Origin: Aeromicrobium sp. | Lineage (GTDB): Bacteria; Actinomycetota; Actinomycetes; Propionibacteriales; Nocardioidaceae | Assembly (NCBI GenBank): GCA_025965115.1 | Contig: JAOPXO010000065.1 | Coordinates: forward strand, 1-34,387 | Reading direction: 5' to 3' | Length of the DNA stretch: 34,387 bases | Shown here: positions 3,092 through 12,761 of the stretch, piece by piece | Position numbering within the stretch: the stretch's first letter is position 1 | How the letters are laid out: each line of letters starts with the position of its first letter | Translations under genes and position numbers: made by a program | The notes under the pieces: generated by a model | Told to the model about the DNA's origin: nothing | Database searches by the model: none | What the model saw: the letters and a program-made list of their open reading frames with translations, nothing else

Positions 3092-4648
3092 TTAGCTCCT
3101 CTTGGCGGGAGCCTTCTTGGCGGGTGCCTTCTTGGCGGGTGCCTTCTTGGCAACTGTCTTCGTCGCCGGTGCCTTCGTCGCCGCAACCTTCTTCACAGGT
3201 GCCTTCTTCGCGGCAGCCGTCTTCGACGGCACGACCCGTCGAGCGGTGGCAACCGCCTTCTTGGCGGCCGATCGGGTCGACGTGCGTGCGGTCTTCTTGG
3301 CTGGGGCTTTCTTGGCCGGGGCCTTCGGTTTCTTGGTGCCCTCGCCGTAGCGCTCCTCGAGCGCCCGCACCGTGGTGGGGTGTTCGGCCATGACCAACGG
3401 AGTCTCGCCGACGATCGCATTGTGGCTGCCCCATGCGAGGTACTTGGCGGTGAGGTTGATCATCGTGGCGAAGCGGTTGCGGTTGCCGAGCAGCGTGGCA
3501 ACGTGCAGGGCCACCCAGATGAACCACGCCGGGAATCCCTTGAGTCGTGGCAGGCCCTTGATCTGTGCGATCGCCGAGGCGCGACCAATCGTCGCCATCG
3601 TGCCCTTGTCGCTGTACTTGAAGTCCTTCATCGACTTGCCGTCCTGGGCGCGGCTGATCAGCTTGGCGACGTGCTTGCCGCCCTGAATGGCCGGCTGCGC
3701 CAGCTGTGGCAGGGCGACCGGGCTGATCGCGATGTCACCGATCGCGTAGACGTCATCGAGGCCCTCGACCTTCCAGTGCGAGTCGACCTTGATGCGGCCG
3801 CCGCGACCTTGCGGGATGTTCCAGTCCTGGATCGTCGAGTGCGCGGTCACGCCGCTGGCCCACACCACGATGCCGGCCGGGAGGAACTCCTCCTTGCCGC
3901 CCTTGACGACGAGGACGCCATCGCTGCGGACCTCCTTGACGGTGGTCTCCAGCCGAAGGTCGACATCGCGCTTCACCAGCGCCTGCCTGGCGTACTCGCG
4001 CAGCTTCTCGTGGAACGGCGCGAGCACGAACGGGCCCATCTCGATCAACGTGATGTGGATGCGCTTGCGGTCGAGCTCGGGATAGGTCGTCGGCATGTCG
4101 TTGTTGCGGAGCTCCGCGAATGCACCGGCCGTCTCGACGCCGGTCGCGCCGCCGCCGACGACCACGATGCGCAGGTCCTCGTCGGTGCGGTTGATGACGG
4201 CGTTTTCCAGGGCTGCGAACATACGGTCACGGACCGCGAGGGCCTGCGAACGCTTGTAGAGCGGCATGCCGAACTCCTCGGCACCGGGCACGCCGAAGAA
4301 GTTGGTGGTGACTCCGGCTGCGAGGATCAGGTGGTCGTACGACACCGTGAGGCCGCTCTCGAGACCGAGCGTCTTGGTGACGTGATCCATCGTGAGCACG
4401 GTGCCCTTGATGAACCGGACGTTGTCCTGCTTGGCGCGGATGGCGCGCAGGAACCACGTCACATCGCCGGGGTTGAGGCTCGCGGTCGCGACTTGGTAGA
4501 GCAGCGGTTGGAAGGTGTTGTACGTGTGACGGTCGATCAGGGTCACGTCGACATCGGCTCGCTTGAGCTTGCGGACGGCAGCAATGCCACCGAAGCCGCC
4601 TCCAACGACGACAACGTGCGGACGTTTGGTCGCTGAACTCTGGGCCAT
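3092..4648 (-). CDS. ndh: Type II NADH dehydrogenase (NDH-2) with lysine/alanine-rich tail
   Basis: 518 residues. NDH-2 oxidises NADH and reduces menaquinone at the inner face of the membrane without pumping protons. The FAD motif GGGFGG is at 16-21, the second NADH-binding GGGATG at 165-170, YAIGDIA at 301-307, and QLAQPAIQGG (quinone-side region) at 315-324. The amphipathic membrane-binding part lies at about 370-415. The core ends near residue 437; residues 438-518 are an extra 81-residue tail with 23 Lys, many Ala/Pro/Thr and KKAPAKKAPAKK repeats, like histone-H1-type tails. Ordinary NDH-2 proteins are about 430-470 residues, so the tail is added. The ATG at 4648 follows the -10 TAAACT by 6 nt. 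Its TAA is 2 nt before the downstream DUF1349-like gene. Confidence 0.92.
   Translation of the reverse strand: MAQSSATKRPHVVVVGGGFGGIAAVRKLKRADVDVTLIDRHTYNTFQPLLYQVATASLNPGDVTWFLRAIRAKQDNVRFIKGTVLTMDHVTKTLGLESGLTVSYDHLILAAGVTTNFFGVPGAEEFGMPLYKRSQALAVRDRMFAALENAVINRTDEDLRIVVVGGGATGVETAGAFAELRNNDMPTTYPELDRKRIHITLIEMGPFVLAPFHEKLREYARQALVKRDVDLRLETTVKEVRSDGVLVVKGGKEEFLPAGIVVWASGVTAHSTIQDWNIPQGRGGRIKVDSHWKVEGLDDVYAIGDIAISPVALPQLAQPAIQGGKHVAKLISRAQDGKSMKDFKYSDKGTMATIGRASAIAQIKGLPRLKGFPAWFIWVALHVATLLGNRNRFATMINLTAKYLAWGSHNAIVGETPLVMAEHPTTVRALEERYGEGTKKPKAPAKKAPAKKTARTSTRSAAKKAVATARRVVPSKTAAAKKAPVKKVAATKAPATKTVAKKAPAKKAPAKKAPAKRS
3101..3150 (-). repeat. 15-bp tandem repeat encoding AKKAP units in the Ndh tail
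   Basis: The plus strand shows GCCTTCTTGGCGGG(T/A) about three times in succession, encoding the KKAPA repeats at the C-terminus. Copy-number change would alter the tail by 5 residues and keep the frame. Confidence 0.85.
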
Positions 4649-4654
4649 GACACC

Positions 4655-4660
4655 AGTTTA
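4655..4660 (-). promoter_or_regulatory. Leaderless -10 hexamer of ndh
   Basis: On the minus strand TAAACT ends 6 nt before the ATG at 4648. It is the only promoter-like element in the 51 bases between ndh and the upstream membrane-protein gene. Confidence 0.55.
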
Positions 4661-4699
4661 TCGGTGTGCGAGCAGGGTCAGAAATCGAGAGGGTGTGAC

Positions 4700-5653
4700 C
4701 TACGTCTTGGCGAACCAGGCGCGCGACTCGGGCTTCCGCAGCTGCACGATGACTACGATCGCGGCCACCGTCCAGGGCACTCCGATCGGGAATCCGACGA
4801 TCGATACGACGCAGGAAATTGCGGCCATGACCAGCAGCGCGATGCCACCCTCACGCCGCCCGGTGAGCAGTGCAATCGATGCGAGCAGGCCGGCTACGCC
4901 CAGCACGAGCAGCACCGCGGCGGCGATCGTCGCGACCCGGATGAGGGTGTCGAGGTCCATGTCCGATTGGCGCACCAGGTCAGCCATGAACTTGCTGTCG
5001 GTCATCGCCTGGCGGTAGTCGTCACGGAACAGGACGAGGACAAACAGCTCCAGAGCGCTCACACCGGCCACAATCAGCGAGCCGATCAGACCGGTCCAGG
5101 CGGCGACAGTGACCGGCTGGGGCAGGGTCCTACGAGTCGGTGCGGCAACGCCGGACGGCATCGCCTGGTCGGGCCGCGCGACTGCGGGAACGGACGCAGG
5201 GCTAGGTGCCCGAACGGCCGGAGCCTCACCGCGGAAGTGGCGGCGGATGTCGCCCGACCACAGCTGCGCAACGCATACGAGCAGGAAGATCGCCTGGAGC
5301 TCGGAGACGAACGGCCCGGTCGCGGCGAATGCTGCGATGACCACCGCCAATACGGTCAGTGCGGTGCGGCTGGTCCGATGCGACATCGCGGTGTAGACCG
5401 CCAACACGACGCACATCGCGGCGATACCGGCGACGACGATCAGAAACGTGCGATAGGACGTCTCCGCATTGCTACGCGTGAAGCCGTTGCGGACCAGCGC
5501 ATCGATCAGGGACTTGCGGTCCGCCTGCCCGTTGATCGACGTCCATGCAGCGACCGTTGACGCCGCCGTCAGGCACTGGATTGCGCACACCACACCGATG
5601 TACGTGCAGACCGCCACCAGCAACGACGGGCGCTGCAGCTTGGAGGAGGTCAT
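4700..5653 (-). CDS. Conserved multi-pass membrane protein of unknown function
   Basis: 317 residues. Hydrophobic segments are at about 10-33, 70-88, 95-115, 118-130 (short), 173-205, 236-262 and 267-300, so about six membrane passes. A proline/alanine-rich cytoplasmic-type linker (about 138-170) divides two halves. The end, RKPESRAWFAKT, resembles the PESRxWF ending common to a family of actinobacterial membrane proteins of unknown function. The ATG at 5653 lies 34 nt downstream of the clpB stop, so read-through from clpB is possible. A TGGGAT hexamer stands exactly 6 nt before the ATG, the same element and spacing as before the lipoprotein gene starting at 18162. Confidence 0.75.
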   Translation of the reverse strand: MTSSKLQRPSLLVAVCTYIGVVCAIQCLTAASTVAAWTSINGQADRKSLIDALVRNGFTRSNAETSYRTFLIVVAGIAAMCVVLAVYTAMSHRTSRTALTVLAVVIAAFAATGPFVSELQAIFLLVCVAQLWSGDIRRHFRGEAPAVRAPSPASVPAVARPDQAMPSGVAAPTRRTLPQPVTVAAWTGLIGSLIVAGVSALELFVLVLFRDDYRQAMTDSKFMADLVRQSDMDLDTLIRVATIAAAVLLVLGVAGLLASIALLTGRREGGIALLVMAAISCVVSIVGFPIGVPWTVAAIVVIVQLRKPESRAWFAKT

Positions 5654-5659
5654 ACCGCA

Positions 5660-5665
5660 ATCCCA
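5660..5665 (-). promoter_or_regulatory. Possible non-canonical leaderless -10 (TGGGAT)
   Basis: On the minus strand GTGGTGGGAT is followed by 6 nt and the ATG at 5653. The same 10 bases at the same distance precede the gene starting at 18162. It lacks the A at position 2 of TANNNT, so confidence is low. Confidence 0.3.
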
Positions 5666-5687
5666 CCACGACGCCCGGCGGCCAGGA

Positions 5688-8297
5688 TCAGGCGGGCTGG
5701 ACGGTCAACTCGTCGGCGCCGGTCTGATGGTCGACCACGACCGTCTCGCCGTCGCGGATCTCGCCCGCGAGCAACGACCTGGCGAGCCGGTCACCGATCG
5801 ACTGCTGCACCAGCCGCCGCAACGGGCGAGCTCCGTAGGCCGGATCCCAGCCCGTCTGCGCAAGCCACTCACGCGCGGCCGGGGTCACGTCCAGCACGAT
5901 CCGCCTGGCCTCGAGCCGCTTGGCCAGCGCGGTGACCTGGAGCCCGACGATGTGGGCGAGCTCATCGGGGCCGAGTGCATCGAACAGCACGATCTCGTCG
6001 AGCCGGTTGAGGAATTCGGGCTTGAACGATGCCCTGACGACTCCCATCACTGCTTCGCGCTTGGCATCGTCGTCCAGGGACTCATCGGCGAGGAACGCCG
6101 ATCCGAGGTTCGACGTCAGAATCAGGATGACATTGCGGAAATCGACCGTCCGACCCTGACCGTCGGTGAGCCGACCATCGTCGAGCACTTGCAGGAGGAT
6201 GTCGAAGACCTCAGGGTGCGCCTTCTCGACTTCGTCGAGGAGCACCACGGAGTACGGCCGACGGCGAACGGCCTCGGTCAGCTGCCCGCCCTCGTCGTAC
6301 CCGACATATCCCGGAGGAGCACCGACGAGTCGACTGACCGAGTGCTTCTCGCCGTACTCGCTCATGTCGATGCGGATCATTGCGCGCTCGTCGTCGAACA
6401 GGAACTCAGCCAAAGTCTTGGCGAGCTCGGTCTTGCCGACGCCGGTCGGGCCGAGGAACAGGAACGATCCGGTCGGCCGGTCGGGATCGGAGATTCCTGC
6501 GCGCGAGCGCCGGACGGCATCCGAGACCGCTGCCACGGCCTTCTTCTGGCCGATCAGTCGGTGTCCCAGCTCCTCCTCCATCCGCAACAGCTTGCCCGTC
6601 TCACCCTCGAGCAGTCGGCCCGTGGGGATGCCGGTCCACGACGCCACGACCTCGGCGATGTCGTCAGCGCCGACCTCTTCGTGCACCATCGAGTCGCCCT
6701 CTTGGTACCCAGCCATTGAGGCTTTTGTGGCACCCGACGTGAGAGCATCTGCCAACTCGCGTTCCATGGCGGGGATCTCCGAGTAGAGCAGTCGACTGGC
6801 AGTCTCCATGTCACCGTCGCGCTGGGCGCGCTCGGCGGCACTGCGGACCTCGTCGATCCGTTCCTTGATCTCACCGACCGCGTTGAGCGCCTGCTTCTCG
6901 CGCTCCCACCTGGTCTCGAGGGCGCGTAGTGCCTCCTGCTTGTCTGCGAGCTCGACCCTGAGCTTCTCGAGTCGGTCGCGGCTCGCCGCGTCCTCCTCCT
7001 TCTCCAGGTGGAGCTCCTCCATCCGCAGCCGGTCGACGGCGCGACGCAGCTCGTCGATCTCGACCGGGCTCGAGTCGATCTCCATACGGAGTCGGCTGCT
7101 CGCCTCGTCGATCAGGTCAATTGCCTTGTCCGGCAGCTGTCGGCCGGGGATGTAGCGGTCGGACAGGGTCGCGGCAGCAACCAGCGCGGCATCGGAGATC
7201 GACACCTTGTGGTGTGCCTCGTACCGCTCCTTGAGGCCACGCAGGATCGCGATCGTGTCCTCCGGACTCGGCTCACCGACGAACACCTGCTGGAACCGAC
7301 GTTCGAGCGCGGGGTCCTTCTCGATGCGCTCGCGATATTCGTCGAGCGTCGTGGCGCCAATCATCCGGAGCTCGCCACGCGCGAGCATGGGCTTGAGCAT
7401 GTTGCCGGCATCCATCGCGCTGTCGCCACCCGCGCCCGCGCCGACCACCGTGTGCAGCTCATCGATGAACGTGATGACCTGGCCGTCCGATTCCTTGATC
7501 TCGTTGAGCACGGCCTTGAGCCGCTCTTCGAACTCGCCGCGGTACTTCGCACCCGCGACCATGGCCGCGAGGTCGAGCGAGATGAGCCGACGACCACGCA
7601 GCGACTCGGGCACGTCGCCCGCGACGATGCGCTGGGCGAGGCCCTCGACGACGGCGGTCTTGCCGACGCCGGGTTCGCCGATCAGGACGGGATTGTTCTT
7701 CGTACGCCGTGACAGCACCTGGATCACGCGACGGATCTCGCTGTCGCGGCCGATGACCGGGTCGAGCTTGCCCTCACGGGCGACGGCTGTCAGGTCGACG
7801 CCGTATTTCTCAAGGGACTGATAGGTCTCCTCGGCATCCTGGCTCGTGACCCGAGCCGTGCCTCGTACGGAGGCGAATGCCGCCTGCAGCGACTCGGCGG
7901 TTGCTCCGAGGTCGGTCAGCAGCGTTCGCGCGGGTGAGTCGACCGTCGCGATGCCCACGACCAAGTGCTCGCTGGAGACGAAGTCGTCACCGAGCTGGTC
8001 GGCCAGATCCTGCGCCCGTTGCAGCACCTCGTGCGACGACCGGCTGAGTCCGGGGTTCTGGACGCTGGCACCACTTGCGGACGGCAACGCGTCCAACGCC
8101 GACTTGAGGTCGGCGCGCAGCACCTGAACGTCGACGCCGGCGGCCTGCATCAGCGGGGTCGCCGTGCCGCCGTCCTGCGTCAGCAGGGCAGACAACAGGT
8201 GGGCCGGCTCGACCGCGGGATTGCCCGCAGCGGCGGCAGCAGAGATCGCGGCGCCCAGCGCTTGCTGGCTCCGCGTGGTGAATTTCGCCAAGTCCAT
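5688..8297 (-). CDS. clpB: ATP-dependent disaggregase ClpB
   Basis: 869 residues, full family length. ClpB is a hexameric AAA+ chaperone that extracts polypeptides from aggregates with DnaK. The Clp N-domain repeats are at about 1-145. NBD1 has Walker A GEPGVGKT at 207-214 and Walker B VITFIDE at 274-280. The coiled-coil middle domain spans about 405-525 (rich in Leu/Glu/Arg heptads), which separates ClpB from ClpA/ClpC. NBD2 has Walker A GPTGVGKT at 616-623, the pore loop GYVGYDEGG at 663-671 and Walker B VVLLDE at 684-689. No IGF/IGL ClpP-binding loop is seen. The ATG at 8297 has CGGGAGT upstream. Expression is likely controlled by HspR and SigH from the elements at 8314-8367. Confidence 0.97.
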
Positions 8298-8313
8298 ATG
8301 AGTACTCCCGTTG

Positions 8314-8332
8314 TTGAGACAGAGTCACTCTG
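8314..8332. promoter_or_regulatory. Proximal HAIR-like HspR operator upstream of clpB
   Basis: TTGAGA-N7-ACTCTG matches the HspR inverted repeat TTGAGT-N7-ACTCAA at 5/6 and 4/6 positions with the right 7-nt spacer. It is embedded in the perfect ACAGAGT-C-ACTCTGT palindrome. It covers the expected transcription start of the SigH-type promoter. Confidence 0.5.
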
Positions 8333-8335
8333 TTC

Positions 8336-8361
8336 AACGCCCTCAGAGTTGAGTCCATTCC
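8336..8361 (-). promoter_or_regulatory. SigH/SigR-type promoter of clpB
   Basis: On the minus strand GGAAT (plus 8357-8361) and GTT (plus 8336-8338) are separated by exactly 18 nt, the consensus of SigH/SigR heat- and disulfide-stress promoters. The start codon is about 40 nt downstream. The -35 lies inside the distal HAIR element. Control of clpB by SigH and HspR is known in mycobacteria and corynebacteria. Confidence 0.65.
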
Positions 8362-8367
8362 TATCAA
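8349..8367. promoter_or_regulatory. Distal HAIR element (HspR operator)
   Basis: TTGAGT-CCATTCC-TATCAA: the left half is a perfect HAIR half-site, the right matches ACTCAA at 4/6, with the 7-nt spacer. It lies in a longer GAGTTGA...TCAACTC inverted repeat at 8346-8370 and overlaps the GGAAT -35. Confidence 0.65.
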
Positions 8368-8411
8368 CTCTGGCATTTTTGCGCCGTGTGCGACAGGGAC
8401 GGAAGTCCTGA

Positions 8412-9971
8412 TCAGTAGCCAGTGAAGTAGTCGGTCTTGATGCCGGCGCAACGCTTGGCCAGTCCCGGACGTACGGCATTGACCATCGCCGGAGGGCCCG
8501 AGACGTACGCCCGCCGCTTGCCGAGATCGGGCACCGCCGACGCGATGATCTCGGCCGAGAGGAACGGCGCCTCGATCCAGCGCCACGTGGTCGGCAGGTG
8601 GTCCGGGCGCACCGCCGACACGATGACGACGTTGAAGGCTGCGAGCTCATCGGCGTAGCTGATCTCTTCGGGCCCGGTGACGCCGTAGACGAGTACCGCA
8701 TCACGCTCGGGATGGTGTCGCAGCTGACTCAGGAACGGGGTGATGCCGATGCCGCCGGCGACGAGCAACAGAGGCACGGCGGCATCCTTGGGGAGGATGA
8801 AGTCGCCGCCAACCCCGGTGCCGCGCACGGTCTGACCAGGCTTGAGGTCGAGCAACGCCTTCTTGTACGTCGACGACTTCTCGGGCACCCGCACCGCGAT
8901 GGTCAGCTGGCCGTCGTCGTGGGGCGGCGAGCTGATGCTGAACGTACGTCTGACACCGCGACCGTCGGCGCGGGCGTGCGGGACGGTCAGCTCGGCATAC
9001 TGCCCGGGCGCGAACCCGAGACCGTGCTTCGCGCGGAACTTGAGCTCGTGCGTCTCCGGCGTGAGCTTGCGCTTGCTGACCAGCTCGAGCGAGAGACCGC
9101 GCCGGCGGGCGAACGCGAACGCCACGAGGTTGCCGACCAGCAGCGAGACGCCCGGCGTGATCGCGAAGACCTTGAGGTTCGGGGGCGAAGACGTGAAGAG
9201 CAACACCCAGATCGGATAGGAGAACACCACCGCGGTCACCAGCGAGACGGTGAGCTGCTGAACCCGGCGGGGAGGCAGGGTCAGTGGCTCGCTCAGCATG
9301 AAGCCGGCGAGGAAGACGATCGGATAGGCGTACGCCATCGTCTTGAACGGAGCAGGCTGACCGATGTGGTTGAGGCCCAGCGTGACCAGCACTCCCGCGA
9401 CCACGATGAACAGCACCCCGATGTCGAGCCGCCGCGTGCGCCACAGCACCAGGAAGGCGCCGACCGCGACGAAGGCCAGCAGCTGCTTGTTGCCGATCCA
9501 CCACGAGGCGGTGATCGGCAGATCGCGGCCGATCGCGTACTGGATCGCGTAGACGAGGAAGGCTCCGGCGGCGGCGGGGTTGAAGATGTGCCGGCCACGC
9601 CAGGCCAGGACGTATTTCGACACATTTGCCAACGCACCGGCACCGGCGATCCACGCGAGGTCCGCCGCATCGGTCGACGGCGTGAAGATGAACCACAGGA
9701 GCAGGGCGGTGATGATCGCCGACTCGCCGTGTGTCTTGACCCGCCAGATGAGTCCGAGGAGCCTGCTGCTCGCATAGGTCGCGACCAGGACGACTACCAG
9801 GGTCACCAGCTCGCTCTTGACCGTGAACCGTCCCGTGAACGTGCCGTTGATCGTGAAGGCGAGCATCACGACGACGAGTACGCCGAGCACGATCGTCACG
9901 AGCCGGTACATCGTGACTCGTCCCAGCTGGCGGTCGAGAAGATCTCGGGGGCTGACATCCTTGGGGCTCAT
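8412..9971 (-). CDS. NqrB/RnfD-like membrane domain fused to ferredoxin-NAD(P)H reductase module
   Basis: 519 residues, beginning MSPKDVSPRD. This ATG overlaps the apbE stop in ATGA and has GGAGAGG upstream; the frame is open 11 codons further without support. Residues about 20-290 hold eight to ten membrane helices with GRHIFNPAAAGAF at 126-138 and MLSEPLTLPP at 225-234, the arrangement of NqrB/RnfD family flavoproteins. Residues about 295-519 are a cytoplasmic FNR module: RTFSIS at 342-347 (FAD), GGIGITPF at 406-413 and SGPPAM at 491-496 (NAD(P)H), with the C-terminal DYFTGY. No SGAT motif for covalent FMN is seen in the membrane part. Likely role: carry electrons from NAD(P)H across the membrane to the exported FMN protein encoded two genes upstream. 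The final acceptor is unknown. Confidence 0.85.
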   Translation of the reverse strand: MSPKDVSPRDLLDRQLGRVTMYRLVTIVLGVLVVVMLAFTINGTFTGRFTVKSELVTLVVVLVATYASSRLLGLIWRVKTHGESAIITALLLWFIFTPSTDAADLAWIAGAGALANVSKYVLAWRGRHIFNPAAAGAFLVYAIQYAIGRDLPITASWWIGNKQLLAFVAVGAFLVLWRTRRLDIGVLFIVVAGVLVTLGLNHIGQPAPFKTMAYAYPIVFLAGFMLSEPLTLPPRRVQQLTVSLVTAVVFSYPIWVLLFTSSPPNLKVFAITPGVSLLVGNLVAFAFARRRGLSLELVSKRKLTPETHELKFRAKHGLGFAPGQYAELTVPHARADGRGVRRTFSISSPPHDDGQLTIAVRVPEKSSTYKKALLDLKPGQTVRGTGVGGDFILPKDAAVPLLLVAGGIGITPFLSQLRHHPERDAVLVYGVTGPEEISYADELAAFNVVIVSAVRPDHLPTTWRWIEAPFLSAEIIASAVPDLGKRRAYVSGPPAMVNAVRPGLAKRCAGIKTDYFTGY

Positions 9972-10822
9972 ACGAATACCTCTCCAGGAAAGTCCGGCGA
10001 CCACTCCACGTGGCCATCGGCATGCATACGGACGAATTCGTGCTGGAAGCGTCCCATGAGCGCGGCTGGTTCGGCCAGGAAATGTGCCGTCGCCAATCCG
10101 TCGGCGTACATGCAGGTTGCGGCGACCACCCAGGTCGCGATGACATCGTCGGTCGGCCGTCCCGTGCGCGCATCAAGTACGTGGTGCAGGTCATCACCCC
10201 AGGCGCGGCGATTGGTCGCCGAGGCACAGAGGGCCAGCTCGGGCTCGAGCTCGGCAACCCCGATCGCCATCGTCGGATCGCGCGGATGCTCCAGGGCGAC
10301 CCGGATCGGGGCGGTGCCGTGGTGGAAGAGGTCCCCGCTGGCATTGACGGTGAACTGGTTGAGGTCCCGGATCAGGATGCTCGACACGAGGTCGACCAGC
10401 AGACCCTTGCCGGCCGCGCCGATGTCGATGAGGACCGGCTGTGTCGTATGCACGACAGGTGCCGAGAAGCTGAGCGTCGACCAATAGGGGACGTCTGCGG
10501 GAGCATCGACCGGGCTCAGCGAGTAGTCGGCGTCATAGCCGAGGTCGGAGAGCGTACGTCCGATCAGCGGGTTGACCGCCCCGTCGGTGGCGTCGTGCAG
10601 CTCGTCGTAGAACCGGAACAGCGGCCCTGCCTCGTCCGGGAGCTCCCACTCCCCGACCCCCGCCGCGATCGCCGAGACCACCGAGTCAGGTCGGAACCGG
10701 GACCACACCCGGTCGAACTCGTCGATCCGGGCAAGGACCTCGGCCTGCACCGCCTCGGCGAGCGGCTCCCGCGTGTCGATTTGCCACGCCGTGCCGATCG
10801 CCTCGAACTGCCAGGCGGCCAT
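9968..10822 (-). CDS. apbE: FAD:protein FMN transferase (ApbE)
   Basis: 284 residues. ApbE cleaves FAD and attaches FMN to a Thr/Ser of exported flavoproteins. Visible family features are MGTAW-like FEAIGTAWQID at 6-16, the FDRVWSRFRPDS region at 36-47, DIGAAGKGLLVD at about 132-143 (flavin binding), NASGDLFHHG at about 160-169, and the AWGDDLHHVLDARTGRP region (about 206-222) with the expected His and Asp residues, then a WVVAATCMYADGLATA segment. There is no signal peptide or lipobox, so the protein appears cytoplasmic or non-classically placed, unlike many Gram-negative ApbE lipoproteins. It is 1 nt downstream of the FMN_bind lipoprotein gene and overlaps the reductase gene by 4 nt, which makes the lipoprotein its probable substrate. 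Confidence 0.93.
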   Translation of the reverse strand: MAAWQFEAIGTAWQIDTREPLAEAVQAEVLARIDEFDRVWSRFRPDSVVSAIAAGVGEWELPDEAGPLFRFYDELHDATDGAVNPLIGRTLSDLGYDADYSLSPVDAPADVPYWSTLSFSAPVVHTTQPVLIDIGAAGKGLLVDLVSSILIRDLNQFTVNASGDLFHHGTAPIRVALEHPRDPTMAIGVAELEPELALCASATNRRAWGDDLHHVLDARTGRPTDDVIATWVVAATCMYADGLATAHFLAEPAALMGRFQHEFVRMHADGHVEWSPDFPGEVFV

Positions 10823-10823
10823 G

Positions 10824-11282
10824 TCAGGCCTTGGCTTCGGCCTCGATCTGCTGGATCACCTTGTCGAAGCCCAGGTGGGTCAGGGACGAGCCGGCAACGA
10901 CCGAGACATTCAGCGCGTCGATGCGCTTGCCGACTGTCTCGGCCGCGATCCCGCCGGCGAAGTCGGTCTGGTGACCCTTCGACGTCGGGTCGGTGGCCTC
11001 GGGCGTGACCTTGATCTTCGTGATCTTGCTGTCGGCGAGCGTCAAGGCGACCTTCAGCTTGGAGACGCCGCCGGGATTGGCGTAGCTCGCCTCGCCGGAG
11101 TACGACCCGTCCTTGAACGTGGCGTCGCTGGAGGACCCGCCATTCGAGCTGTCGGTGGTCGCGGCCGACGTCGGCGAGGTGCTGCCGCCATCGCTCGAGC
11201 TGCTGCCACATGCGGCAGTCAGCAGGAGTACGGACACGGCGGCAGTTGCCGAGAAGAACTTGTGGGTCGGAGACAGCTTCAT
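10824..11282 (-). CDS. FMN-binding-domain lipoprotein
   Basis: 152 residues. The signal peptide has the lipobox LTAAC with Cys25, so the mature protein is anchored to the outer face of the membrane. A Ser/Thr/Gly-rich linker (26-54) follows. The FMN_bind domain (about 55-150) starts with FKDGSYSGEA and has GHQTDFAGGIAAE at 103-115. The expected ApbE target is the segment VVAGSSLT (128-135); it corresponds to the usual SGATxT motif but is degenerate (AGSS), so the acceptor is likely Ser133 or nearby. GGGAG upstream supports the ATG at 11282. First gene of the lipoprotein-apbE-reductase unit. Probable role: covalent-FMN electron carrier outside the membrane. Confidence 0.88.
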   Translation of the reverse strand: MKLSPTHKFFSATAAVSVLLLTAACGSSSSDGGSTSPTSAATTDSSNGGSSSDATFKDGSYSGEASYANPGGVSKLKVALTLADSKITKIKVTPEATDPTSKGHQTDFAGGIAAETVGKRIDALNVSVVAGSSLTHLGFDKVIQQIEAEAKA

Positions 11283-11360
11283 ACGGATGGGCTCCCGGGC
11301 TCGTGGAAAAGGGCGACGGTCATATAACGACGGAGGACCGCTGAACGTTCACGACGCTGG

Positions 11361-12761
11361 TCACAAATCTGCCATCGCTGCCGTTGCAGCGCGGAAGCCA
11401 CCCATTCCGTGCACGCCGGCTCCTGGCGGTGTCGACGCCGAGCACAGGTAGAGGCCCTTGACGCCGAGCGAGTACGGGTTGGTCGACGCCCGAGGTCGCA
11501 TGACAACCTGCCACGCGTCGTTCGCGCCGCCCGCGATATCGCCGCCGAGATAGTTGGCGTTGTGGGCCTCGAGCTGAGCGGGGGTCGTGACCGCCTTCGC
11601 CACAATGCGCTCGCGGAAGCCCGGGGCGAAGCGCTCGATCTGGGCGATCAGCGCCTCGGTCGCATCGCCGGTGTAGCCCTGCGGCACGTGCGCGTAGGCC
11701 CACACCGGGTGCACATCACCGACCGAACGACCGGGATCTGCAAGGTACTGCTGGCACAACAGGACGAAAGGGTGCTCTGGCATCCGTCCGGCGTGGACCT
11801 CCTTCTCGGCCGCGTTGAGCTGCTCGATGGTGCCCGCGACGTGGACCGTGCCGGCCTTGCGCGCCCACTCATTGGTCCACGGCACACCACCATCGACGGC
11901 GAAGTCGACCTTGAACACCCCGGGCCCGCGCCGCCATTTCGTGAACGGTCGCCGGACCCGACCCGGCAGCCGGTCACCGGCGATCTTCAGCACCCCGGCC
12001 GGGGTGGTGTCGAACAGGACGATGTCGGCCTCGGGCAGCTCGGTGACCTCGTGGCCGGTCTCGATCGTGCCTCCGTGCTCGACGATCTCCGCGGCCAGCG
12101 CGTGCGCGATTGCCGACGAGCCGCCCTTGGCGACCGGCCAGCCATAGGCGTGACCCGTCATCCCGAACATCAGTCCGAGGCCGCCGGTGGTCGGACGGTT
12201 GAGCGGATAGATCGCGTGCGCCGCCATGCCCGCGAAGAGGCCACGAGCTTCGTCGGTCTCCCAACGCCGGGCGATCCAGGTCGCAGGGGCCAGCGCCCGG
12301 CTGCCGAACTTCGCCAGGGTGATCGGGTGCTTCGGCACGTGGATGATCGGCTGGAACAGCTCATCGATGAGCGCATCGCTGTGCTTGACCAGCGGGGCGT
12401 ACAAGCTCCGCCACTTCTTGCCGTCCTTGCCGAGGAGCTCTGCGGTGCGGTCGAGATCGCGGAACATCACCCCGGCGCGACCCCCGTCGATCGGGTGCAC
12501 GGCGTCGACCTCGGGCCACAGCCACTCGAGCCCATGTCGGCCGAGATCGAGGAACCGGAAGAACGGCGAGGCGACTCCGGTCGGGTGGGTCGCCGAACAT
12601 ACGTCGTGGATCATCCCGGGAATCGTGAGCTGGGCCGAACGGGTGCCGCCGCCGATCTCGTCGGCGGCCTCCAGCACCGTCACCGTGATGCCTGCCCTGG
12701 CAAGCACAACGGCGGCGGCCAGCCCGTTGGGGCCAGAACCCACGACGACGGCGGAAGTCAT
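11361..12761 (-). CDS. CrtI/PYROXD2-like FAD-dependent oxidoreductase
   Basis: 466 residues. The N-terminal dinucleotide fold is VVVGSGPNGLAAAVVLARAG (5-24) with the acidic end of strand 2 at LEAADEIGGGTRS. The C-terminal FAD motif is STPPGAGVHGMGGFRAAT (about 443-460), as in phytoene-desaturase-like and PYROXD2-type proteins of mycobacteria and relatives. No other carotenoid genes are present, so carotenoid desaturation is not implied; an NAD(P)/FAD oxidoreductase of unknown substrate is the safer call. It follows the DUF3556-type gene by 23 nt but has its own leaderless -10 (TAGGTT) 6 nt before the ATG. The upstream part of the flavin operon begins 78 nt after its stop. Confidence 0.88.
   Translation of the reverse strand: MTSAVVVGSGPNGLAAAVVLARAGITVTVLEAADEIGGGTRSAQLTIPGMIHDVCSATHPTGVASPFFRFLDLGRHGLEWLWPEVDAVHPIDGGRAGVMFRDLDRTAELLGKDGKKWRSLYAPLVKHSDALIDELFQPIIHVPKHPITLAKFGSRALAPATWIARRWETDEARGLFAGMAAHAIYPLNRPTTGGLGLMFGMTGHAYGWPVAKGGSSAIAHALAAEIVEHGGTIETGHEVTELPEADIVLFDTTPAGVLKIAGDRLPGRVRRPFTKWRRGPGVFKVDFAVDGGVPWTNEWARKAGTVHVAGTIEQLNAAEKEVHAGRMPEHPFVLLCQQYLADPGRSVGDVHPVWAYAHVPQGYTGDATEALIAQIERFAPGFRERIVAKAVTTPAQLEAHNANYLGGDIAGGANDAWQVVMRPRASTNPYSLGVKGLYLCSASTPPGAGVHGMGGFRAATAAMADL

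Follow-up and report, generated by a model that had tools for sequence, protein, structure and literature searches.

A predicted NQR/RNF-like flavin electron-transfer module with a leaderless ApbE in Aeromicrobium

Introduction

The closest described relatives of the system treated here are the NQR/RNF-like gene clusters, which are defined by PF03116 and PF00175 in one protein near genes for ApbE (PF02424) or FMN-binding (PF04205; FMN, flavin mononucleotide) proteins (Meheust et al. 2021, PMC8238504). That study describes 127 such clusters, primarily from Actinobacteria and the candidate phyla radiation, and proposes a one-way flow of electrons from NAD(P)H. Here, we analyse a three-gene module that encodes a lipoprotein of the FMN_bind type, an ApbE transferase and a membrane-reductase fusion. 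It lies in a stretch of 34,387 nucleotides from Aeromicrobium sp. (Nocardioidaceae; assembly GCA_025965115.1, contig JAOPXO010000065.1, positions 1 to 34,387), referred to as the window; the host assembly is 3.03 Mb and 88% complete.

As in the published class (see also Huang et al. 2024, PMC10979944, PMC11334425), an FMN_bind protein and an NqrB/RnfD-reductase polypeptide are encoded near apbE, and the covalent NqrB site is lost. Compared with the class as these papers describe it, the window module differs in having no PF04205 or PF03116 match, a GSS motif in place of [S/T]GA[S/T], an ApbE without a leader and a promoter-like element of the extracytoplasmic function (ECF) sigma type. The MsrQ-like flavinylation clusters of Actinobacteria are also associated with flavinylation and have a membrane electron-transfer protein of their own; however, this is a six-helix haem-binding protein (PMC8238504) and not an NqrB/RnfD-like domain. 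In Klebsiella, a leaderless, cytosolic ApbE is found with a soluble fumarate reductase (PMC12052999), but there the substrate stays in the cytoplasm, while the presumed substrate of the module is exported.

The Rnf and Nqr complexes contain a homologous membrane domain (NqrB/RnfD), an FMN carrier (NqrC/RnfG) and a reductase (NqrF), with ApbE-dependent FMN. The module makes do with two subunits, where these complexes have about six; it lacks a second membrane path, and its membrane domain carries no covalent FMN motif. In Listeria, flavin-based extracellular electron transfer includes an NADH dehydrogenase step and an exported flavinylated lipoprotein, PplA, which the window lipoprotein resembles if its predicted flavinylation is right. 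The match of the latter to the PplA model of NCBIfam is weak (E 8.7e-6) and far below the cut-off. The Listeria transferase FmnB attaches flavin outside the cytosol, for which a flavin transporter is required (PMC9973259); no such transporter gene is present among the scanned neighbours of the module.

A three-gene module conserved in relatives

We suggest that the module is a member of the published NQR/RNF-like class and that it most likely moves electrons from cytoplasmic NAD(P)H to an FMN lipoprotein on the outside, with a probability of roughly 0.78. Judged from its sequence, it can be placed in the class by homology and architecture and not by the PF03116 threshold: PF00175 is on the same polypeptide, ApbE is in the cluster and a signal and lipidation site are predicted in the lipoprotein (from a lipobox read by eye and from hydropathy), while PF03116 stays below threshold. 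The features are as follows.

10824-11282, minus strand: lipoprotein gene, 152 amino acids (from the list of open reading frames)
11208-11210, minus strand: Cys25 of the lipobox LTAAC, by direct reading; marks the product as a predicted exported lipoprotein of the FMN_bind type (NqrC/RnfG-like)
10884-10895, minus strand: presumed FMN-attachment motif AGSS, residues 130-133; predicted, with Ser133 as acceptor by alignment
9968-10822, minus strand: apbE, 284 amino acids, 1-nt gap to the lipoprotein gene (open reading frame list)
8412-9971, minus strand: fusion gene with ATG at 9971, 519 amino acids, 4-nt ATGA overlap with apbE (open reading frame list)
9102-9971, minus strand: membrane domain of the fusion, residues 1-290, about ten helices, NqrB/RnfD-like, signature RHIFNPAAAG
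8412-9101, minus strand: FAD/NAD(P)H reductase domain of the fusion (FAD, flavin adenine dinucleotide), residues 291-519 plus stop, PF00970 and PF00175 over cut-off
11326-11351, minus strand: putative ECF-sigma-type promoter-like element TGAAC-N17-CGTT upstream of the lipoprotein gene

The open reading frames bear out the three genes, coordinates and 1-nt and 4-nt junctions of the first-pass annotation, which had been made from the letters alone, and the module recurs in relatives. The fusion is found in 46 of 49 genomes of the genus (the host included) and in 51 of 197 in a sample of the family (one partial). All three genes are present in 49 of the 50 family loci fetched; the remaining one, L080, has a contig end beside the fusion. 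The lipoprotein gene lies within 60 nt of apbE, or overlaps it, in 46 of the 49 (with mechanically chosen starts), the best lipoprotein match being 2643, 2643 and 662 nt away in L055, L056 and L058, and the 4-nt overlap between apbE and the fusion is kept in 41. Among 95 further loci from the phylum or from named genomes, in sets that share genomes with the family loci, 82 contain all three genes. The 13 misses are L109-L117, which are distant and match the fusion only, together with L106 and L107, where the lipoprotein is present and was missed by the profile, L135, where the fusion is near a contig end, and L168, with the fusion only. This recurrence across genus and family shows that the arrangement is not due to chance. 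The search of other actinobacterial genomes, which had been proposed as a check, did return the same gene order and domain fusion.

At a larger distance, a profile of the membrane domain matches 18 of 396 phylum genomes; for eight of these E is 2e-40 or lower, and the other ten are distant matches (2.6e-14 to 5.6e-4). At least 438 relatives are confirmed in named genomes; the best 80, which were kept, are from Aeromicrobium, Nocardioides, Arthrobacter and its kin, many Microbacteriaceae, Nakamurella, Tsukamurella and two Saccharibacteria metagenome-assembled genomes. The same gene order is seen in Aeromicrobium, Arthrobacter, Microbacteriaceae, Nakamurella, Tsukamurella and one of the Saccharibacteria genomes. 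It is also seen in L106, which carries all four of the Pfam signatures by which the class was defined.

Several of the outlying loci have features of their own. L106 (genome G289) and L107 (G554) both have FMN_bind, ApbE, PF03116 and PF00175 over cut-off and SGAT or TGAT motifs, and they may be useful for tracing the origin of GSS. In the Saccharibacteria genomes, L197 contains a complete GSS-type module at 4642-7488, while L168 has the fusion with its partners undetected. The G+C content of the module equals that of its flanks in both (0.46 in L197 and 0.42 in L168); either may nonetheless be misbinned. In a midpoint-rooted tree of 34 rows, L197 and L168 group with L106 and L107, apart from the 30 Actinomycete rows, and all four deviate in composition. 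The fusion gene of L108, near 5644-7551, is interrupted by an in-frame stop, and the distant membrane-domain matches in L109, L110 and L112 (G307, G515 and G224) lie inside open frames of 1076, 1356 and 1519 residues.

The membrane-reductase fusion

The C-terminal half of the fusion matches NAD_binding_1 (PF00175) with 33.8 bits against a cut-off of 22, and FAD_binding_6 (PF00970) is also over its cut-off. Both profile and Foldseek searches match this domain to FNR-type reductases, including NqrF. The first-pass annotation had described a fusion of an NqrB/RnfD-like part with a reductase, and the reductase part stands on the window copy itself. The membrane part is too divergent to match PF03116 in the window and is recognised through its relatives: one of 20 aligned fusions matches PF03116 (E 2.7e-4), and the outgroup fusions of L106 and L107 do so over cut-off. 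When 20 membrane domains and 30 RnfD-type sequences are compared as profiles by hhalign, they align at E 3e-4, with a probability of 40%, over a region ending in the NPA motif. Homology of the membrane domain to NqrB/RnfD is supported by these relatives and by hhalign, while the window copy remains below the Pfam threshold. The AlphaFold model of the whole fusion is confident (mean predicted local distance difference test, pLDDT, 87; predicted template modelling score, pTM, 0.76), and a Foldseek search with it against a viral library gave no match at E 0.001.

The covalent-FMN motif [S/T]GA[S/T] is absent from all 132 distinct membrane domains, and the pattern around H-x-x-N-P is kept in 131 of them. 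The loss agrees with that described for NQR/RNF-like proteins, where the covalent site is gone and the carrier flavin is proposed to visit a non-covalent site (PMC10979944).

The lipoprotein and its presumed flavin site

That the first gene encodes an FMN_bind lipoprotein, as the first-pass annotation had it, holds in part: the lipobox can be read directly and FMN_bind is matched in 19 of 21 aligned orthologues (threshold E up to 1, best 7.7e-8), but in the window copy the domain is not recognisable by Pfam. A search of the whole genome for FMN_bind finds a single sub-cut-off match elsewhere (E 0.17) and none at the window lipoprotein. A hydrophobic segment precedes the last 110 residues in all 102 distinct lipoproteins (mean above 1.5; open frames may extend upstream of the start). 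The structure model contains a folded domain, mostly above 80-90 in pLDDT with a block above 90 at residues 61-120, after 50 initial residues below 50. Foldseek finds nothing at E 0.001 with this model; its weak matches (best E 0.018) include 3o6u and 8p2a (FMN-domain), RnfG 8rb9_G and NqrC 3lwx, and also IscU. The first of them, 3o6u, is a flavinylated FMN-bind structure according to PMC11334425. A lipoprotein profile searched against the sequences of the Protein Data Bank (PDB) gives one weak match, confined to the signal region.

The motif used by ApbE is D-x-x-[S/T]-G-A-[S/T] (review PMC12052999), and in its strict form it fails in 102 of 102 distinct lipoprotein tails (from 132). Instead, the tails have [A/S/G]GSS in 100 cases and ASSS in two, with Ser at position 3, the canonical Ala, in every one; the Asp position is Asp in just 19 of 103 tails (de-duplicated differently). 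For comparison, 30 further FMN_bind loci of the class were read, chosen by best score and hence biased toward the canonical form: SGA[S/T] is found in 27 and GGAT, read by eye, in three. The outgroup operons L106 and L107, which share the gene order and come from genomes of another class, have DTVSGAT and NTVTGAT.

These deviations could mean that the lipoprotein is not covalently flavinylated at all, i.e., that GSS is a degenerate site, the flavin is non-covalent or absent and ApbE serves another protein. The universal Ser at position 3 and the poorly kept Asp fit this view, as do a preference for Thr over Ser and the drop to about 50% flavinylation on a change of the Ala to Val (PMC12052999). 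However, GSS is conserved near-absolutely and regularly co-occurs with ApbE, serine acceptors of flavin are already known (PMC8238504; PMC12052999), and the outgroup has SGAT or TGAT in the same operon, so we regard a lipoprotein without covalent flavin as improbable. We take GSS to be a genuine ApbE site that has changed in this family, and not noise; FMN would be carried on Ser133, and the protein may still act like an FMN_bind carrier although it fails the strict motif. No report of flavin on GSS was found in the literature searched, which covered titles, abstracts and selected passages.

ApbE and the site of flavin loading

The claim of an ApbE transferase needs no revision, as the window protein matches PF02424 with 127.7 bits (E 7.8e-37), over the cut-off. 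Alignment to the E. coli protein shows that the His of HVxD, a Ser and the Asp of AD are conserved; we take these to be the residues named as catalytic in V. cholerae ApbE (PMC12052999). An N-terminal hydrophobic segment, defined as a 12-residue mean hydropathy above 1.8, is absent from all 111 distinct orthologues of the window type (highest 1.48; from a pool of 135, with L135, L106 and L107 skipped), and none is visible by eye in the ApbE of L106. In 55 of the 111, no more than 26 residues can precede the first conserved motif within the open frame. None of the 30 best-scoring ApbEs of the class exceeds the threshold either, several being close below it (three at 1.65-1.77, more at 1.65). 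By the same measure E. coli ApbE scores 2.68, and 23 of 30 ApbEs from 24 RnfD-bearing phylum genomes have the segment, with that of L299 narrowly below at 1.75. The missing leader thus looks general in the class and not peculiar to this operon.

Since ApbE has no export segment and its presumed substrate is exported, the simplest reading is that FMN is loaded before export. The Sec channel tolerates attached groups of about the size of FMN. Alternatively, the same electron path could operate with the flavin attached outside, by a leaderless ApbE exported along a non-classical route. Most described ApbEs are secreted (PMC12052999), in line with the 23 of 30 above; against this stand the complete absence of the segment in the orthologues and in the best-scoring ApbEs of the class and the short stretch ahead of the first motif in half of the orthologues. 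We consider attachment outside unlikely, without dismissing it. Twin-arginine export of a folded, flavinylated lipoprotein was rejected as a general route: the RRx-hydrophobic pattern is present in 19 of 127 lipobox lipoproteins (132 examined), although the pattern is simple and misplaced in some lipoproteins, and the two sequence sets share strains.

A second ApbE, also leaderless, is encoded in the same genome (contig G000:C234, locus L084, about 5150-8240). It is preceded by a short lipoprotein-like frame that has no FMN motif and followed by a frame that by eye resembles a haem-type (MsrQ-like) membrane protein.

The proposed electron path

In the path that we propose, the reductase domain of the fusion would take hydride from cytoplasmic NAD(P)H to FAD, and the electrons would then traverse the membrane by way of a non-covalent flavin in the NqrB/RnfD-like domain. 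From there they would reach the FMN bound covalently to the GSS serine of the lipoprotein outside and pass on to some extracytoplasmic acceptor. ApbE would take FMN from cytoplasmic FAD and attach it, most simply, to the precursor of the lipoprotein while this is still inside the cell. The one-way path from NAD(P)H to the lipoprotein, with fewer subunits than in Rnf or Nqr, is that of the published NQR/RNF-like model (PMC8238504; PMC10979944; PMC11334425), and the tests made here are consistent with it. The earlier description as a minimal system from NAD(P)H to an outside FMN therefore survives in substance, but not as an undescribed system: both architecture and path have been published, and the explanation is largely known.

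Several points weigh against this reading. The support comes from sequence and models. The window membrane domain has no Pfam match of any kind, the hhalign probability against RnfD is just 40%, a membrane profile searched at E up to 10 has no match among PDB sequences, and the 50 matches that Foldseek listed for the fusion are FNR-type reductase proteins, with neither NqrB nor RnfD among them; the membrane fold is thus without confirmation from structure searches. The lipoprotein in turn has no Pfam match at E up to 1, PF04205 included, and its GSS deviates from D-x-x-[S/T]-G-A-[S/T] at one to three positions. For loading inside the cell, a cytosolic, truncated ApbE of Salmonella failed to replace the exported one (review PMC12052999).

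Electrons could also flow in reverse, from an outside donor to NAD(P)+. The direction is not fixed by the sequence, and reversal is conceded in principle in PMC8238504, but the published models of the class draw an outward flow (PMC8238504; PMC10979944), and we give reversal very little credence.

The first-pass annotation also had the module replacing larger complexes. No further Rnf/Nqr subunit is found among the neighbours, and a PF03116 search of the assembly, which is 88% complete, yields nothing at E up to 0.001. Since this search did not find the RnfD/NqrB that a complete complex would need, such a complex was rejected as an explanation of the locus, and replacement of larger complexes can be suggested.

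A promoter-like element and the possible acceptor

The GAAC-N17-CGTT in the window, from 11350 down to 11326, is the sole one on either strand. With TGAAC it is one base off the GGAAC consensus, as it is in Arthrobacter and Herbiconiux, and an alignment of 20 selected upstream regions reveals a common GGAAC...CGTT pair. GGAAC-N16-18-CGTT is present in 32 of 50 upstream regions of the family set (shuffles: mean 0.1, maximum 2), and GAAC-N15-19-CGTT in 44 of 78 of a second set (shuffles: mean 1.5, maximum 5); the upstream sequences are related and the sets overlap, so these counts are not independent. The N17 form occurs 34 times in 1.47 Mb of family-locus sequence, both strands counted, and 30 of the 49 upstream regions there hold it. 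In the single genome, GGAAC-N16/17-CGTT shows no excess (27 against 35 in a reversed control), a count that is uninformative alone.

In Corynebacterium, sigma-H and sigma-E promoters have GGAAC-N17-18-cGTT; according to the same source, the mycobacterial sigma-E consensus is identical to GGAAC-N18-19-GTT (PMC10012870). The sigma-E promoters of Streptomyces that are listed in PMC6767563 resemble these, but most of them have other endings than CGTT. The operon may thus be induced by an ECF sigma factor, and the conserved element offers a first hint of when the module is used. An iron regulator was considered and rejected for the window: within 130 bases upstream of the lipoprotein gene no IdeR-like box is found within 6 mismatches, and of 49 relatives two, L049 and L068, fall within this limit (5 each).

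Such an element fits an acceptor side different from a respiratory or extracellular-electron-transfer chain, namely a stress-induced envelope redox repair system or a ferric or quinone reductase. The resemblance to the Corynebacterium and mycobacterial consensus and the missing IdeR-like box speak for this. However, 17 of the 50 upstream regions of the one set and 34 of the 78 of the other do not have the element even in its looser form, the Streptomyces promoters mostly end differently, and six published clusters contain an iron transporter (PMC8238504). We would call the stress module almost an even bet.

Two further sequences are seen beside the element. A palindrome, TGAACGTTCA, at window positions 11342-11351 overlaps the -35-like part, recurs in L034, L035 and L037 and is a possible operator; downstream of CGTT, GTTGAACCTTCATC occurs in many relatives.

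Genomic setting

Downstream, the module is followed by ClpB, identified by reading, and upstream domain scans identify a CrtO/CrtI-like FAD oxidoreductase and a DUF3556 membrane protein. A gene of the CrtO/CrtI-like type (window 11361-12761) lies on the same strand, at most 500 nt upstream, in 26 of 50 family loci. A scan of 8200-11500 for sigma-70 promoters and terminators gave no match.

A conserved partner gene as the acceptor was sought among nine flanking genes from five loci of five genera (L154, L140, L132, L145 and L133) and one window gene, and no common family emerged; the CrtO/CrtI-like oxidoreductase lies outside this set of nine. With unrelated flanking genes across five genera the module looks self-contained, although flanking genes are common within some lineages.

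Implications

Three points go beyond the first-pass annotation, namely the ApbE without an N-terminal export segment, the non-canonical GSS and the ECF-type promoter element. None of them was found for this module in the literature searched, and the location of ApbE is the most interesting. Tentatively, and at somewhat below even odds, they can be combined: the leaderless ApbE would load FMN on the precursor inside the cell, the unfolded, flavinylated precursor would be exported by the general secretion route, GSS would be the matching recognition site and the module would be an envelope-stress system of Actinomycetes under an ECF sigma factor, not a respiratory chain. If true, loading inside the cell would remove the need for FAD export and explain the missing signal of ApbE.

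The family looks wider than a search based on PF03116 shows, with at least 438 relatives against the 127 published clusters, which come from a different and smaller genome set, and one PF03116 match among 20 aligned members. How exported proteins receive covalent flavin from an ApbE that has no signal is a clear and testable question, and an operon of three genes with two redox proteins offers a small system for addressing it.

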